DNA from: Kiritimatiellia bacterium
GTDB taxonomy: Bacteria; Verrucomicrobiota; Kiritimatiellia; RFP12; UBA1067
DNA: 64,000 nt
Reading direction: 5' to 3'
Assembly (NCBI GenBank): GCA_017395505.1
Contig: JAFPUH010000015.1
Location: forward strand, 1 to 64,000
The position numbers were made by a program, and so were the translations under genes. Shown here piece by piece: positions 33,524 through 39,873 of this stretch. The notes under the pieces were generated by a model that saw nothing but the letters and a program-made list of their open reading frames with translations, had not been told where the DNA came from and made no database searches. The first letter of the stretch is position 1. The number at the start of each line of letters is the position of its first letter.

Positions 33524-33546
33524 AGGGTCTGCCATGGCAATTCCTT

Positions 33547-33585
33547 CGCCGCGCTTGATTCGAGCGCGGCGATTTGCTTTATTTT
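33547..33585 (+). terminator. Rho-independent terminator after the lipoprotein gene
   Basis: Perfect 9-bp stem CGCCGCGCT (33547-33555)/AGCGCGGCG (33563-33571), 7-nt loop, then a T-rich tail. It separates the lipoprotein operon from the giant-protein gene. Confidence 0.85.
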
Positions 33586-33591
33586 ACCCCC

Positions 33592-33620
33592 TTGCGCGGC
33601 GGGAGGATTTATGGTAAACT
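33592..33620 (+). promoter_or_regulatory. Promoter of the giant secreted protein and its leader
   Basis: TTGCGC (33592-33597), exactly 17 bp, TAAACT (33615-33620) preceded by TATGG. This predicts a start near 33627 and a leader of about 285 nt. Confidence 0.68.
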
Positions 33621-33626
33621 TTTTTA

Positions 33627-33909
33627 TGTCTGATGATAGGCGGATGCTGTGTCCGCAAATCACAGGTTAGATTACCCGCGCGGGATCGGCATTAACGTGA
33701 TGCCAGGAACGCGTCTGGGATTGCGTTGAGTGAAAGCGTAGGAAACTATCACCCAGAGGCGCATTGAAAATGGCACTGCCGTCACGTGCAGTTTCGCCTC
33801 CTTCGATGTTCCTTTAAGGTTATTCCTACGCACCTCACTCGAAGCATCGGGGGAGGTGCCAGAAGCCCACACCAAGCCCGATCTAAAACGAGGGGCTGAG
33901 GTGTGAGGT
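33627..33909 (+). ncRNA. Candidate structured, pseudoknot-capable leader RNA (class unknown)
   Basis: No open frame of merit lies on the plus strand. Helices visible: GCGGA/TCCGC (33640-33644/33652-33656), whose loop CTGTG can pair with CACAG at 33661; GGCAT/ATGCC (33688-33692/33700-33704); GCG..CTGGG/CCCAG..CGC (33711-33719/33752-33762); ACTGC/GCAGT (33775-33779/33788-33792); GCACCTC/GAGGTGC (33830-33836/33853-33859). GCGTAGGAA at 33736-33744, inside a hairpin loop, pairs perfectly with TTCCTACGC at 33823-33831. The last hairpin (33868-33905; CACACC/GGTGTG over AGCCC/GGGCT) contains the likely Shine-Dalgarno GAGGTG (33898-33903). It matches no riboswitch class I know. The 5' end is inferred from the promoter. 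Confidence 0.55.
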
Positions 33910-36900
33910 ATGATAGGTAAATTGACTAGAACGATAGTGCGAACATTCGCGTTCGCATTGGCTCTCTGCGCAACAAGCGGCGCATGGGCGGCGGACTCGC
34001 TTGAGGAGACGGGTGGCTTCGTTTCGTCATCTTCAACGCTTGCGTTCAAGGGTGTCTCATTAAGCGAACTCACAGCCGATACGCTATCAGCAAGAATGGC
34101 TGGCAGTTGGGTGTCCACAAAGGGCACGGCGGTAACATTCTGCGGATTGAGTCTCTCTGGCTCCACCCTTACTTGTGAGGCGCAAATGTACGAGGCTACT
34201 ACTGATTTTACGGGTGTTAAGTCAATCTACCTGACTTTCTCGCAGGATGGTGATGATATAAATGTACAGGCTACAAATGTCAAATCTTTGAGCGGCGGCA
34301 CGTTGGGCACTCCAGTCGGAAGTGGCGGCTCGTCGGTAAACGGCGGTGTTCCTGCTAGCACATATACGGGTAATGGCTATGGCCTTTACAACCTCTCGCT
34401 CACCCGCTCGTGGAGCGATAGCGCGGTAGTCATCTGGGAAGCCGGGCAGTTCGGCGTGACCTCCAAGACCGGTTCGGATGGCAATACATATACGCTCAAT
34501 CTCAACAGCAACTCAAATGGCAGCGGCGAGGCGATTACGATCGACCAGAGCCTCGGAGCGACGATTGATTTCAGTTCAGCATTTGCGGCTGATGACGGCG
34601 GTACGGTGCTCATACGGTATTCAAATCTCCCGCTTGATACTACGCAACGCGCAATCGTGACGACAAAGTGTGGAAGCAATAACGACCGCACGGGTGTTTG
34701 GATAAACACCGATGCCACAGCAGGTAAGACAGGCGGCGTCTGGGGTGGTGCAAATTACAACTCAGACGGGAACACACGCACGACACTCGACAGTAACAAG
34801 TCGGCAGGCGTAATGGCCTTTACTTACCATCATACTGGCGGTTCATATCTGTATTATCTTGCTAATGGCGTAAAGACAATACAGCATGGCGATTCTGGAT
34901 TAAAGGGCAAGAACGACACGATCAGTGGCATTGCAATCGGTGGAACTCGTGCTACATCTACAACAGGCACCGCTGCTACTGGCATGAAGATTACCGGCAT
35001 TGCCATTTTCAAGGGCGTGCTTACCGAGTCGCAGATGACAAGCTTCGTCTGGCCGTCGGCGGCTGCGAGAAACTATACAAGGTGGAGTTATGCTGGAACG
35101 GCCAATGTGTGGACATATGCAACGCCATCTTCTGTTAGTGGAGATGAGGGCATCGCCAATAATAATGTGAAATACTATGTTTTTGACATGTCATCGGGCG
35201 CTGATACTGCGCAGAATTACACGGGAGGAAACACGTCAAACAATTTTGCGTATTGGACGTACTTCGCCTATACAAAGGCTATTGCAGAGGCTAGTAGAAA
35301 ATACACAGCACCAGGGCGAGTTCTCCGCTTTGTCGCGAGTGATAGTTATCGCAAGGCGAACATAAATGGCAAGTTTTCGCCGTTCACTCTTGGTGGCATC
35401 ATAGTCGAAGAAAATGCCACCGGCTACAGCATCCAGTACACGACAGGAGATAGCGGCACATTGCGCACAATGGCACTGGGCGATCCTACCGGCACGGCAG
35501 AGACATGGTTCGAATTTAATGAAGACTTCACCATCAACCGTACTGACAAGAACGCGCTGATGGGAACGCTCAATTTTGACATTGCCAGCGGCAAAACGCT
35601 GACGTTTGGCAAGGACCTTGAACTTGCCGAAACATGGACTGCCAACAGCACGGGTGGAAATGGCTATCCGACAATTGCTACTGCCGGCGGAACGCTAAAA
35701 TTGCACGGCGGCGGTAAGATGACAATTAACGGCGGCAACGGGACTTTGACCGCGCAAGGTTCGACCCTCGACTATACCGATCTTGCGGCGACGGTCTCGT
35801 CTTCGTCCGATGCGTACATTCAGGGCACGCTGGCGGTTAACAGCAGCACGGTCATTGCGCTTCCGGCCGGTGCGACGTTCCCGTACTATATCGCGACGGG
35901 CATCAGCGGCTCGCTGAACAGCGAAACCGGTGTGACTATCGGTGGCGCGGCGGCACCTTATTATCAGGCCAACGCGGCGGGCTACATAGAGTATGTCGCA
36001 CCCTCGCAAGTGACGATTTCCTCCGATGCCACATGGGGTTCGGGCGGCCTCACCGGCTGGGCGACGGATGACTCGACGAAGGACTACATCATCAACGTCA
36101 CAGCAGACGCCACCCTCACGCTCCCAAGCGCAGTCTCGTGCAAGACAATTGTTTTCAATGTAAGCGATGGCGTGACATTGACACTTGATGGAACATACGC
36201 AATCACGGCGACGGATGAAATCGAAATCAACGGTGCTAATGGTGCAGTTGTCTCGCCATCGACCTCCGCTCTTTCAGGTACTCTACAGGGCAATGGTGTC
36301 TATTGGCTGAAGAATGCAACATTGACGGGCTTCTCTGCGGCAACGATAGCCGATGCGGATTTGACGTTCCGCTTAACTGGCTGCACCGGCTACTTTAACG
36401 GCAACACGACATCGCCTGGCACTCTTGACCTTCAGGATGATGGCGAAACCAAGGCATTTACGATTAGCAACTGCTCGTCTTCTACAGCGGGTGCTATAGT
36501 CTTTGCAAAGCTGACGGGTTCTGGCACACTGACGCATAGCAATGCTAATGTTTATCCTAGGTATGCGTTTAAAGATCCATCTGCATTCCGCGGCACGATT
36601 TCAATTCCTGCTGGATCATCAACTTATGGTACATCAGGCAATCGTCCGTTACGCGTAATTCTAGGTGATGGAGCATCGCTTGACACAGCACAAGGCTCAA
36701 TTACCATCGTTGCTAATGCGACGGCTACTATTGATGCAGGCGTGACTTGGAGCGCACCAGCTGGCGGCATTGTCGTGAGTGGTTCGCTTACGGTTGCCGG
36801 CAATACAGCTACGCCAATCACAGTAAATTCTGGCGGTTCTGCAACAGTCTCTGGCACGGCTTCTGGCGCGATTGCGGACAACGGTACGCTGACGCTTGGC

Positions 36901-39207
36901 GATGCGGCTACTGTCTCTGGAGCGATTTCGGGTTCCGGCGAGGTTGTTTGCACGGTTCTTCCGGACAATGCTGGCCTAGCCGATTCCAGCGGCTGGACTG
37001 GCACTGTGACGGTAAATGGCGTAGCGGTTGCAAGTGTCGCGGCGCAAAGCGCCACGCAATTCATGAATGCCAATTCCAAGCTGGTGGTTGCGGCACCCAC
37101 AGGTGTGGTTATGCCGTATGTCTGGCTGACTTCCGCGAGCGGACTGACTGGCGAAGTTAGTGTTCAGGATACTGCCACGCTTCATGTCGCAGACGACACA
37201 TCTTCCACGATTTCGCTCAAGGTCGGCACTCTTGATGGTACAGGGACGATTAACCTGGGGTCTTGCGTGGCGACAATGCTCAACCTTTCGCTTGGCACGA
37301 AGCGTCCTGCTTCCGCTCGTATAGTCTATCCGACAGGTCTCACGACGCTCAACATCGCCGCTACGGAACTGCTTTCCGAGGATGGCGCTGCCACGTTCAG
37401 CGTTGCAGGTCTATCGTCGCTCACTACGGCGATGATGACGCTAACGAAACTTGATGGCACGACTGAGTCCGTCACGGGAACTGTAAGCGGCAACACGATT
37501 TCGTTTGAGTGGACGCCTACGGTGTCGGCTTCGACGGCTTGGTGCGCGTATGAGTTCGAGACTTCCGATTCTACGGCTCTCAACAACACGGGAAGCGGTG
37601 ATACAACGGCGCTCAGCCCGGATGGCAGTTTCTCTGCGGCGACATCGGTTGACGGCAGCGGCAAGCTTTATACCTACTCGCATCCTTACCGCAGCATCAC
37701 GTATCCGACGGACGGGAACTGGTCGGCAATGGTGCGCTGCACGGTGCCGAAACTTGCAGAGGCCCTTGTGGTTGCGTTCGGAACAAAGAGCGGCGGTATA
37801 ATCGGTCTTGCCGCTGGTGAAAATCCAGATGAGGAAATGAGGGTTGTGCAGGGCTTGAGTTCCGACCAAAGCAGATACCTCACCAATGGTGTAATGTCTG
37901 TTGTGAACGGCACTACGGCGCAGCACGTCTATGTCTTCACGGTTGAGGGCAACCAGCATGTCAAGGTTTATTGTGACGGGACATTGATAAACACTGTCGA
38001 TTTCGAGTCTGCCTTCACGATTGGCGGCGGCATTCAGATTGGTTCCATTCATGGCGGCATAGGGTATGGCCTAAAGCGTTGCTGGGACGGCGATGATGAT
38101 TATGAAACGCTTAGCGATGCAGATCAGAAGGCGGCGCGCATAGATTCCATGCGCCTTTGGAAGACGACGCTTGGGCCTAACGCGATTGCGCAGCTTTCCG
38201 TTGAGTTCCCGGCGGTGAAGCTTTTCCAGGCGACGATTGCGGGCGGGAATGATAATGAGTGGGATTCGCTCAGCTGGACTGGTGGAGACATCAGTACGCT
38301 GAATGAATATTCAAAGATCATCCTGACCGTCACGGACGATGCGACGCTGACGCTGCCTTCCACCGTCACTGCCGAGGAATTCACAATCAATGTGACGGCA
38401 GGCAAGACGCTGACACTTTTGCAGGCGGCGGGCGGAACGACGTTCACGCTCACCAACCCGATTGAGGTCAATAATGGCTCGCTCCAGTTCCCGGATGATG
38501 CCACGATTGACTTCGCAATCAACGGCACTGGAACGGTGCGTGTGGATGACGGCGAGACGCTGAATCTTGTGGACGGCGGTTCGGTGCCGGGTCTGACGGG
38601 TGCCGGCACGCTCGATTGCTCGTCGATGTCTGCGCTGCCGAGTGCGTTCACGTTCAACAGCTGGACGGGCACGGTCTCGCTGCCGAGTTTCAACGCATCA
38701 AGCGGCGTCAACTTCAACAATTACGGCACGACCGGCTCGACCGTCGTCCTCGCGGGCATGACGGGAGGGTATATCCTCGAGGCGGGCAAGAACATTGCGC
38801 CGACTCTCCAGCTGGATCGAGGCATGGTAATCAGTGTGATGAGTTCCTGGACATACACATTCGCGGAAATCACCGGCACGGGCAACCTCTCGTTCGCAAC
38901 GTCAGATAATCAACCGACAGAAATAAACATCACAAAGGTCGCGGAAGGGTACTCGGGCACCATCTCGTCCACGTTGACAACGTCTGTGACCATCGGCAAA
39001 CGAAACCTATCTACCTTGCCGGCTTGCGACGATAAGGTGCTTGCCGTTGGTGGGACAGGGCCGATAAGCCTTGATGTGAGTAACATCAAGTTTGGGGTCA
39101 ATGAGGAATCTTTGCCGGCCAAGTACAAATTGGAGCGCCGTCATGTGGGCGAGGAAGGCGATGGCTTCTACGTCTACTACAACGGCACGATCTTCTCGGT
39201 CTGGTAA
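33910..39207 (+). CDS. Giant secreted LamG/beta-repeat protein (adhesin-like)
   Basis: 1765 residues with an N-terminal signal peptide (cleavage after GAWA, residue ~27). Two regions look like LamG/concanavalin-like domains, about residues 150-385 and 1215-1430 (GNWSAMVRC, QHVYVFTVEGNQHVKVYCDG, ending ARIDSMRLWKTTLG). Between and after them are Thr/Ser/Gly/Ala-rich beta-strand repeats; the modules near residues 730 and 1475 are alike (DATLTLPSAV/DATLTLPSTV then TLTL). There is no autotransporter barrel, PEP-CTERM or LPxTG tail; it ends FYVYYNGTIFSVW. Codons are more AT-rich than in neighbouring genes, suggesting low expression or transfer. Likely cell-surface or extracellular, with a role in attachment or glycan binding inferred. 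A structured leader precedes it and a strong terminator follows. Confidence 0.85.
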   Translation: MIGKLTRTIVRTFAFALALCATSGAWAADSLEETGGFVSSSSTLAFKGVSLSELTADTLSARMAGSWVSTKGTAVTFCGLSLSGSTLTCEAQMYEATTDFTGVKSIYLTFSQDGDDINVQATNVKSLSGGTLGTPVGSGGSSVNGGVPASTYTGNGYGLYNLSLTRSWSDSAVVIWEAGQFGVTSKTGSDGNTYTLNLNSNSNGSGEAITIDQSLGATIDFSSAFAADDGGTVLIRYSNLPLDTTQRAIVTTKCGSNNDRTGVWINTDATAGKTGGVWGGANYNSDGNTRTTLDSNKSAGVMAFTYHHTGGSYLYYLANGVKTIQHGDSGLKGKNDTISGIAIGGTRATSTTGTAATGMKITGIAIFKGVLTESQMTSFVWPSAAARNYTRWSYAGTANVWTYATPSSVSGDEGIANNNVKYYVFDMSSGADTAQNYTGGNTSNNFAYWTYFAYTKAIAEASRKYTAPGRVLRFVASDSYRKANINGKFSPFTLGGIIVEENATGYSIQYTTGDSGTLRTMALGDPTGTAETWFEFNEDFTINRTDKNALMGTLNFDIASGKTLTFGKDLELAETWTANSTGGNGYPTIATAGGTLKLHGGGKMTINGGNGTLTAQGSTLDYTDLAATVSSSSDAYIQGTLAVNSSTVIALPAGATFPYYIATGISGSLNSETGVTIGGAAAPYYQANAAGYIEYVAPSQVTISSDATWGSGGLTGWATDDSTKDYIINVTADATLTLPSAVSCKTIVFNVSDGVTLTLDGTYAITATDEIEINGANGAVVSPSTSALSGTLQGNGVYWLKNATLTGFSAATIADADLTFRLTGCTGYFNGNTTSPGTLDLQDDGETKAFTISNCSSSTAGAIVFAKLTGSGTLTHSNANVYPRYAFKDPSAFRGTISIPAGSSTYGTSGNRPLRVILGDGASLDTAQGSITIVANATATIDAGVTWSAPAGGIVVSGSLTVAGNTATPITVNSGGSATVSGTASGAIADNGTLTLGDAATVSGAISGSGEVVCTVLPDNAGLADSSGWTGTVTVNGVAVASVAAQSATQFMNANSKLVVAAPTGVVMPYVWLTSASGLTGEVSVQDTATLHVADDTSSTISLKVGTLDGTGTINLGSCVATMLNLSLGTKRPASARIVYPTGLTTLNIAATELLSEDGAATFSVAGLSSLTTAMMTLTKLDGTTESVTGTVSGNTISFEWTPTVSASTAWCAYEFETSDSTALNNTGSGDTTALSPDGSFSAATSVDGSGKLYTYSHPYRSITYPTDGNWSAMVRCTVPKLAEALVVAFGTKSGGIIGLAAGENPDEEMRVVQGLSSDQSRYLTNGVMSVVNGTTAQHVYVFTVEGNQHVKVYCDGTLINTVDFESAFTIGGGIQIGSIHGGIGYGLKRCWDGDDDYETLSDADQKAARIDSMRLWKTTLGPNAIAQLSVEFPAVKLFQATIAGGNDNEWDSLSWTGGDISTLNEYSKIILTVTDDATLTLPSTVTAEEFTINVTAGKTLTLLQAAGGTTFTLTNPIEVNNGSLQFPDDATIDFAINGTGTVRVDDGETLNLVDGGSVPGLTGAGTLDCSSMSALPSAFTFNSWTGTVSLPSFNASSGVNFNNYGTTGSTVVLAGMTGGYILEAGKNIAPTLQLDRGMVISVMSSWTYTFAEITGTGNLSFATSDNQPTEINITKVAEGYSGTISSTLTTSVTIGKRNLSTLPACDDKVLAVGGTGPISLDVSNIKFGVNEESLPAKYKLERRHVGEEGDGFYVYYNGTIFSVW

Positions 39208-39471: not shown

Positions 39472-39873
39472 ATGAACGGACAAAGCACTAATGCCCTGGT
39501 AGGTCCACTTGATTCCGATGTCGCCATAAAGTCGCGGATATTCACAATCCGTGGGGTGCAGGTAATGCTGGATCGCGATTTGGCTGCGCTTTATGGGGTT
39601 TCAACCAAGGCTTTGAACCAAGCTGTAAAACGCAACATAAGAAGATTTCCGGATGACTTTATGTTCCAATTGGGGAAAGAGGATGTGGAAAACTTGAGGT
39701 CACAATTTATGACCTCAAGTTGGGGCGGTTTGCGATACATGCCTTATGCCTTATTCAAGGCGATGGATGGAGGGGAGTTTCCGCCGCAGAAGGTGTTTTT
39801 CGACGGACGTCACTACTGCGCCGTCTCGAAAATGGATGCCGCGTTCATTCCGTCAATCTTGCAAAGGATGTGA
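39472..39873 (+). CDS. ORF6N domain protein, C-terminally truncated or recombined
   Basis: 133 residues. Residues 15-92 match the ORF6N domain (FTIRGVQVMLDRDLAALYGV, NIRRFPDDFMFQL, SSWGGLRYMPYA), a DNA-binding domain frequent in phage and mobile-element genes. After YMPYA the usual FTEQGVAMLSSVL sequence is absent and an unrelated tail follows, so the 3' part appears replaced. GAAAGGAGA stands upstream, with a possible GATAAT -10 at 39437. It lies at the edge of the repeat-rich island and is probably a relic. Confidence 0.65.
   Translation: MNGQSTNALVGPLDSDVAIKSRIFTIRGVQVMLDRDLAALYGVSTKALNQAVKRNIRRFPDDFMFQLGKEDVENLRSQFMTSSWGGLRYMPYALFKAMDGGEFPPQKVFFDGRHYCAVSKMDAAFIPSILQRM

Follow-up and report, generated by a model that had tools for sequence, protein, structure and literature searches.

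Within the window, by which we mean the whole 64,000-nucleotide stretch of DNA analysed here, an open reading frame at 33910-39207 (+) encodes a protein of 1765 residues with a signal-peptide-like N-terminus and the C-terminal tail GTIFSVW, and is preceded on its 5′ side by a leader RNA of about 280-285 nucleotides. A Pfam search with the 1765-residue protein returned no match, which leaves without support the label of adhesin given to it in a sequence-only reading of this DNA. The GTIFSVW tail occurs exactly three times in the window genome, each time in the giant protein of one of its three leader loci, and is possibly a sorting or secretion signal; the 24-nucleotide ends encoding it are near-identical (window 39184-39207; G000:C16:28971-28994; G000:C37:34394-34417). 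A gene with an ORF6N domain lies directly after the giant gene (window 39472-39873), and two further leader copies have such a gene a short way upstream (L094:1250-2200, L004:1989-2987). On the 5′ side of the leader, at window 33546-33572, there is a good terminator-like hairpin with a T-rich tail that belongs to the preceding gene.

The promoter proposed by the sequence-only reading, TTGCGC (33592-33597) and TAAACT (33615-33620) separated by 17 nucleotides, is present at 33592-33620 (+), and we assign it from the sequence together with aligned relatives, which carry TATAAT there. The pattern in the relatives is TTGnnn ... TGnTATAAT, at the same distance as in the window. The hexamers of the window copy are both of poor quality, and sigma-70 promoter prediction called nothing at this position. 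Across the family, a −10-like match was found at 98 of 126 copies, as against 122 of 541 control windows.

Searching with the leader, we found three copies in the window genome, the other two being 74-75% identical to the window leader, and the relatives added by a first BLAST search brought the total to 27 loci. Once oriented, these loci align from the promoter through a shared core, and the differences in loop length among them keep no reading frame, so that the conserved stretch is not a coding one. To count the family we built a covariance model on the core (model R1) and ran it on genome sets of the genus, the order and the phylum, the large number of core-negative genomes serving as the control for specificity. 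Within the genus, 37 of 61 genomes have the core, all 10 of the good ones among them; within the order the figure is 78 of 162, with up to eight matches per genome, and in a sample of 388 genomes drawn from across the phylum it is 18, every one belonging to one class. Named records with the core motif belong to Kiritimatiellae, Verrucomicrobia, Lentisphaerae and unclassified assemblies, many of them labelled as ruminant gut. We also considered a phage origin of the RNA and rejected it, as no viral contig bears the core pattern.

A scan of the window and 16 related loci with Rfam 15 at gathering cut-offs gave no match to the leader; in the window the scan picked up a tRNA only, and in the other loci a tRNA together with a fragment of a group II intron. 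This fragment (RF00029, L103:6260-6340) lies about 150 nucleotides upstream of a leader copy. Relaxed Rfam scans of three cores yielded matches at chance level only, and in the open literature, with older candidate-RNA compilations covered only through Rfam, we found nothing on riboswitches or noncoding RNAs in this bacterial group. The leader is a member of an RNA family absent from Rfam 15, in keeping with the initial impression that it matched no recognised RNA class.

The leader folds better than its dinucleotide shuffles on the + strand (z −5.6) and likewise on the − strand (z −4.4). Because the complement scores so well too, folding energy alone is not decisive, and the decisive evidence is comparative. 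In an alignment of 26 sequences in whose making structure played no part, pairing holds in 97% of the cells of the proposed structure, and both partners have changed in 122 cells, where shuffles give 36.6; once the partners are slid by 1-3 columns, the paired fraction falls to 35-47%. With 97 sequences, a tree-aware null written for the present analysis and computed over all column pairs left 13 column pairs at E ≤ 0.05, of which 11 are base pairs of the helices P3, P4 and P5 described below and two are offset by one inside P4.

The structure, all on the + strand, begins with a 5′ stem-loop, P1 (33629..33666), in which 33629-33637 pairs with 33659-33666 around an inner hairpin (33640-33645/33651-33656); its coordinates were checked, and the same shape was obtained in 18 of 18 copies folded (the window and 17 relatives). 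An H-type pseudoknot had been suggested here between CTGTG at 33647 and CACAG at 33661; the two are complementary at 5/5 positions in the window, but P1 takes up the CACAG position as part of its 3′ strand in the 18 copies folded, and we have dropped the pseudoknot in favour of P1. A conserved TAGATTTCCCGCG-type motif and P2 follow (33668..33719), P2 pairing 33675-33682 with 33710-33713 and 33716-33719 and showing three pairs with changes on both sides. The long-range helix P3 (33723..33845) joins GCGTTGAGTG (33723-33732) to CACTCGAAGC (33836-33845); 98% of its cells are paired, and 33728-33840, 33729-33839, 33730-33838 and 33731-33837 pass the tree-aware test. Inside P3 lies P4 (33736..33831), the perfect 9-bp helix between GCGTAGGAA (33736-33744) and TTCCTACGC (33823-33831) on which the sequence-only reading had fixed. 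P4 withstood the covariation check: in 26 relatives it is 98% paired, with four pairs changed on both sides, and 33738-33829, 33740-33827 and 33741-33826 pass the tree-aware null over all column pairs. The topology proposed for it, a hairpin loop reaching out to distant sequence as a pseudoknot, does not hold, the helix being nested instead in P3 (33723-33732/33836-33845). P5 (33754..33816) is composed of 33754-33759/33811-33816 and 33761-33763/33807-33809, is 98% paired and has six pairs with changes on both sides. P6 (33771..33791) pairs CTGC (33776-33779) with GCAG (33788-33791) and is invariant.

Two pseudoknots that had escaped the sequence-only reading complete the core. A small H-type knot forms around P6, between TGGC (33771-33774) and GTCA (33781-33784) on the + strand, where a sequence's own pair scores 8.46 and loops exchanged among sequences score 6.83 (sd 0.23). 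The other, PK7 (33795..33858, +), is an 11-bp pseudoknot between CGCCTCCTTCG (33795-33805) and CGGGGGAGGTG (33848-33858), with 11/11 pairs in the window. Among 100 relatives, 10 of its 11 pairs are at least 92% paired, with changes on both sides; PK7 hardly varies in close relatives, and in distant copies the own arms score 28.2 against 20.0 (sd 1.2) for swapped arms. We asked whether Shine-Dalgarno mimicry might be the reason for the AGGAGG strand of the knot and rejected the idea, for distant copies alter this strand yet keep PK7 paired.

The 3′ strand of PK7 has a second potential partner. It contains GAGGT, and the strand between P4 and P3 contains the complementary ACCTC, so that an alternative, terminator-like hairpin can be drawn at 33830..33859 (+) between GCACCTC (33830-33836) and GAGGTGC (33853-33859), which in the window is not followed by a T tract. 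Since it shares strands with them, this hairpin excludes PK7 and part of P3, and the two folds are mutually exclusive. Of 126 copies, 110 can form a perfect hairpin of at least five pairs at the ACCTC/GAGGT position, and behind 81 of those hairpins there is a T-rich tail (at least five T within an 8-nucleotide stretch), which is seen at 7.5% of random places. The hairpin's own covariation is weak (15.96 for own arms, 15.38, sd 0.19, for swapped ones) because its arms hardly vary, and the case for a putative terminator rests on the conserved complementarity together with the T-rich tail. Neither the window copy nor its two paralogues have a T tract behind the hairpin, which all three possess, so that transcriptional attenuation is not supported for the window copy.

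What the window copy has in place of a T tract is a hairpin over the Shine-Dalgarno sequence. P8 (33868..33905, +) pairs CACACC (33868-33873) with GGTGTG (33900-33905) and AGCCC (33875-33879) with GGGCT (33893-33897), and holds GAGGTG 12-7 nucleotides before the ATG. It is folded in the window, L002, L003 and L005, with related stems in L168 and L009, and the sequence of its inner stem has changed yet remains paired. The hairpin that the sequence-only reading saw burying the Shine-Dalgarno is thus perfect in the window and kept in the nearest relatives, although it is not general in the family. In addition, CACCTCA (33831-33837) can pair at 7/7 positions with TGAGGTG (33897-33903), a possible pairing spanning 33831..33903 (+) that would give CACCTCA an anti-Shine-Dalgarno role. 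Given the missing T tract, the location of the Shine-Dalgarno in P8 and the CACCTCA/TGAGGTG complementarity, a translational platform seems the better guess for this copy. In L154 and L155, a ACCTCCTT...AAGGAGG pairing lies 3′ of the terminator-like hairpin and T tract and apparently covers the Shine-Dalgarno; it is possibly a second, translational platform.

Of 126 copies, 116 share their strand with the next gene, taken as the largest open reading frame that comes after the core, and the median distance between core and start codon is 72.5 nucleotides; of 117 upstream neighbours, 73 are on the strand of the leader. A crude test scored 60% of the proteins encoded first downstream as signal-peptide-like, compared with 11% of upstream proteins. 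The downstream families include BspA-type leucine-rich repeats, FGE-sulfatase-like, Sel1 and FRG proteins and C10 and C1 peptidases; single cases include an EcoRI-type methylase, Hsp70 and VWA proteins, and many targets are very long (1765-2391 residues). The diversity of the targets argues against a single metabolic pathway and fits a general signal or a protein. In one locus, the first short open reading frame behind the second leader copy (L028:5246-5539) resembles a decayed signal-peptide gene, and is followed by a 295-residue protein and then a giant protein. A regulon of defence genes was considered and discarded, because PADLOC matches among the first genes (FRG, TerY, type II methylase and others) are no commoner than among upstream control genes.

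Compensatory changes, a same-strand gene just downstream of 116 of 126 copies and, in most copies, a 3′ strand common to the core and the terminator-like hairpin together support the earlier proposal of a cis-regulatory RNA before the secreted-protein gene, which may be a riboswitch, a protein-binding leader or a thermometer. As in riboswitches, the family has a predicted expression platform overlapping the core, for which the window copy substitutes its Shine-Dalgarno hairpin. As far as sequence can show, the RNA works like a riboswitch-type attenuator, membership among riboswitches proper requiring ligand binding. In the crcB and pfl motifs, a conserved core overlapping terminators was read as a ligand-stabilised core preventing the terminator (PMC2864571). 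The present family resembles these fluoride and ZTP RNAs in having a 5′ leader core whose 3′ strand is overlapped by a predicted terminator, such that a stabilised core would raise expression (PMC2864571); it differs in having no Rfam match, a core of about 190 nucleotides, an 11-bp long-range pseudoknot and targets that point to no metabolite. With the EAR (epsC motif) and LoaP leaders it has in common a location before long operons, a pseudoknot (in the case of EAR) and the presence of a NusG paralogue, but it lacks an Rfam match, its terminator-like hairpin overlaps the core, and the epsC/EAR model found nothing in a cmscan of the window, related loci and three cores. T-box leaders likewise have competing terminator and antiterminator pairings, but the antiterminator here would be a pseudoknot, the targets are not tRNA-linked, and the T-box model gave no match in a cmscan with all Rfam models. 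ANTAR-responsive leaders also set a terminator against an upstream structure and differ in architecture; a search of the genome for ANTAR proteins gave no match, but neither did the control genomes, so that this search says little.

We considered several other explanations for the family. The RNA could be a processive antitermination element that recruits a factor, such as the conserved NusG paralogue, or acts on the polymerase to carry transcription through the whole of long, Rho-prone operons, in the manner of LoaP leaders, EAR and put RNA. The length of many targets (1765-2391 residues) would suit this explanation, as would the occurrence of the NusG paralogue in 30 of 36 genus genomes with the RNA but in only 7 of 23 without it. 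This association is, however, confounded by genome completeness; among genomes at least 85% complete, the paralogue is present in 19 of 21 with the RNA and 2 of 5 without, which are small numbers, and the 92% complete genome G010 has strong leader copies and no match to the paralogue. Furthermore, the 3′ strand of the core is built into a local terminator-like hairpin that a processive element would not need, and we regard processive antitermination as unlikely. The paralogue itself, present in the window genome at G000:C16:15063-15299 (L203:1441-1983) and in most of the genus, has an NGN domain and a weak KOW, and is usually a single extra copy per genus genome; it is a possible partner of the leader.

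Quite improbable, in our estimation, is a stand-alone small RNA acting in trans and ended by its own terminator, with the downstream gene reached by read-through. It would account for an RNA with a promoter of its own, an end resembling a terminator and several copies in a genome, but not for the 116 of 126 copies that are followed by a same-strand gene, the median distance being 72.5 nucleotides (73 of 117 upstream), for targets of which 60% are exported, or for a window copy without a terminator-like end. We consider it very improbable that the leader is a constitutive 5′ structure which stabilises the mRNA or aids ribosome loading without switching: although the fold is very stable and many copies contain a strong Shine-Dalgarno-like AGGAGGTG, distant copies alter the GGAGG-like strand while PK7 stays paired, and two conserved, mutually exclusive pairings exceed the needs of a stabiliser. 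Hardly credible is a recombination or mobile-element end, or some other feature acting at the level of DNA with no RNA involved. Several copies do lie at unrelated places, one of them adjoining the group II intron fragment, but the strand-specific position before genes, the compensatory changes and the promoter-like sequence 5′ of most copies all speak against it, and casual inspection brought neither flanking repeats nor an integrase gene to notice.

The reading that we prefer is that the family is probably a riboswitch-like attenuator through which operons for exported proteins are expressed when the knotted fold forms. The comparative sequence data establish the structure, its conservation, its place in leaders and the two exclusive pairings; from these we infer that switching takes place in the cell, that the knotted state is ON and that a signal exists. 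The core consists of the nested long-range helices P3, P4 and P5 tied together by PK7, whose 3′ strand is also able to pair, as the terminator-like hairpin, with the strand between P4 and P3. When the knotted core is formed, presumably stabilised by a signal, the hairpin could not form, and the polymerase would read into the exported- or accessory-protein operon; when it is absent, transcription would stop at the leader. In the window copy, it is more likely that P8, together with the CACCTCA strand once released, would hide the Shine-Dalgarno, which would make the control translational. The trigger of the switch would be a small molecule or a protein. A bolder version, which we put forward as possible though somewhat short of probable, is that the family is a new class of ligand-sensing, pseudoknot-gated attenuator by which one shared signal coordinates exported and accessory operons across gut Kiritimatiellae, with platforms that are mostly transcriptional and, in the window lineage, translational.

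The family provides a regulatory RNA that is well supported and has a deep set of relatives, in a bacterial group on which our literature search turned up no riboswitch or noncoding-RNA papers. Because its targets are mostly exported and some of them are giant, the signal might mark the times at which these uncultured inhabitants of the rumen alter their surface.
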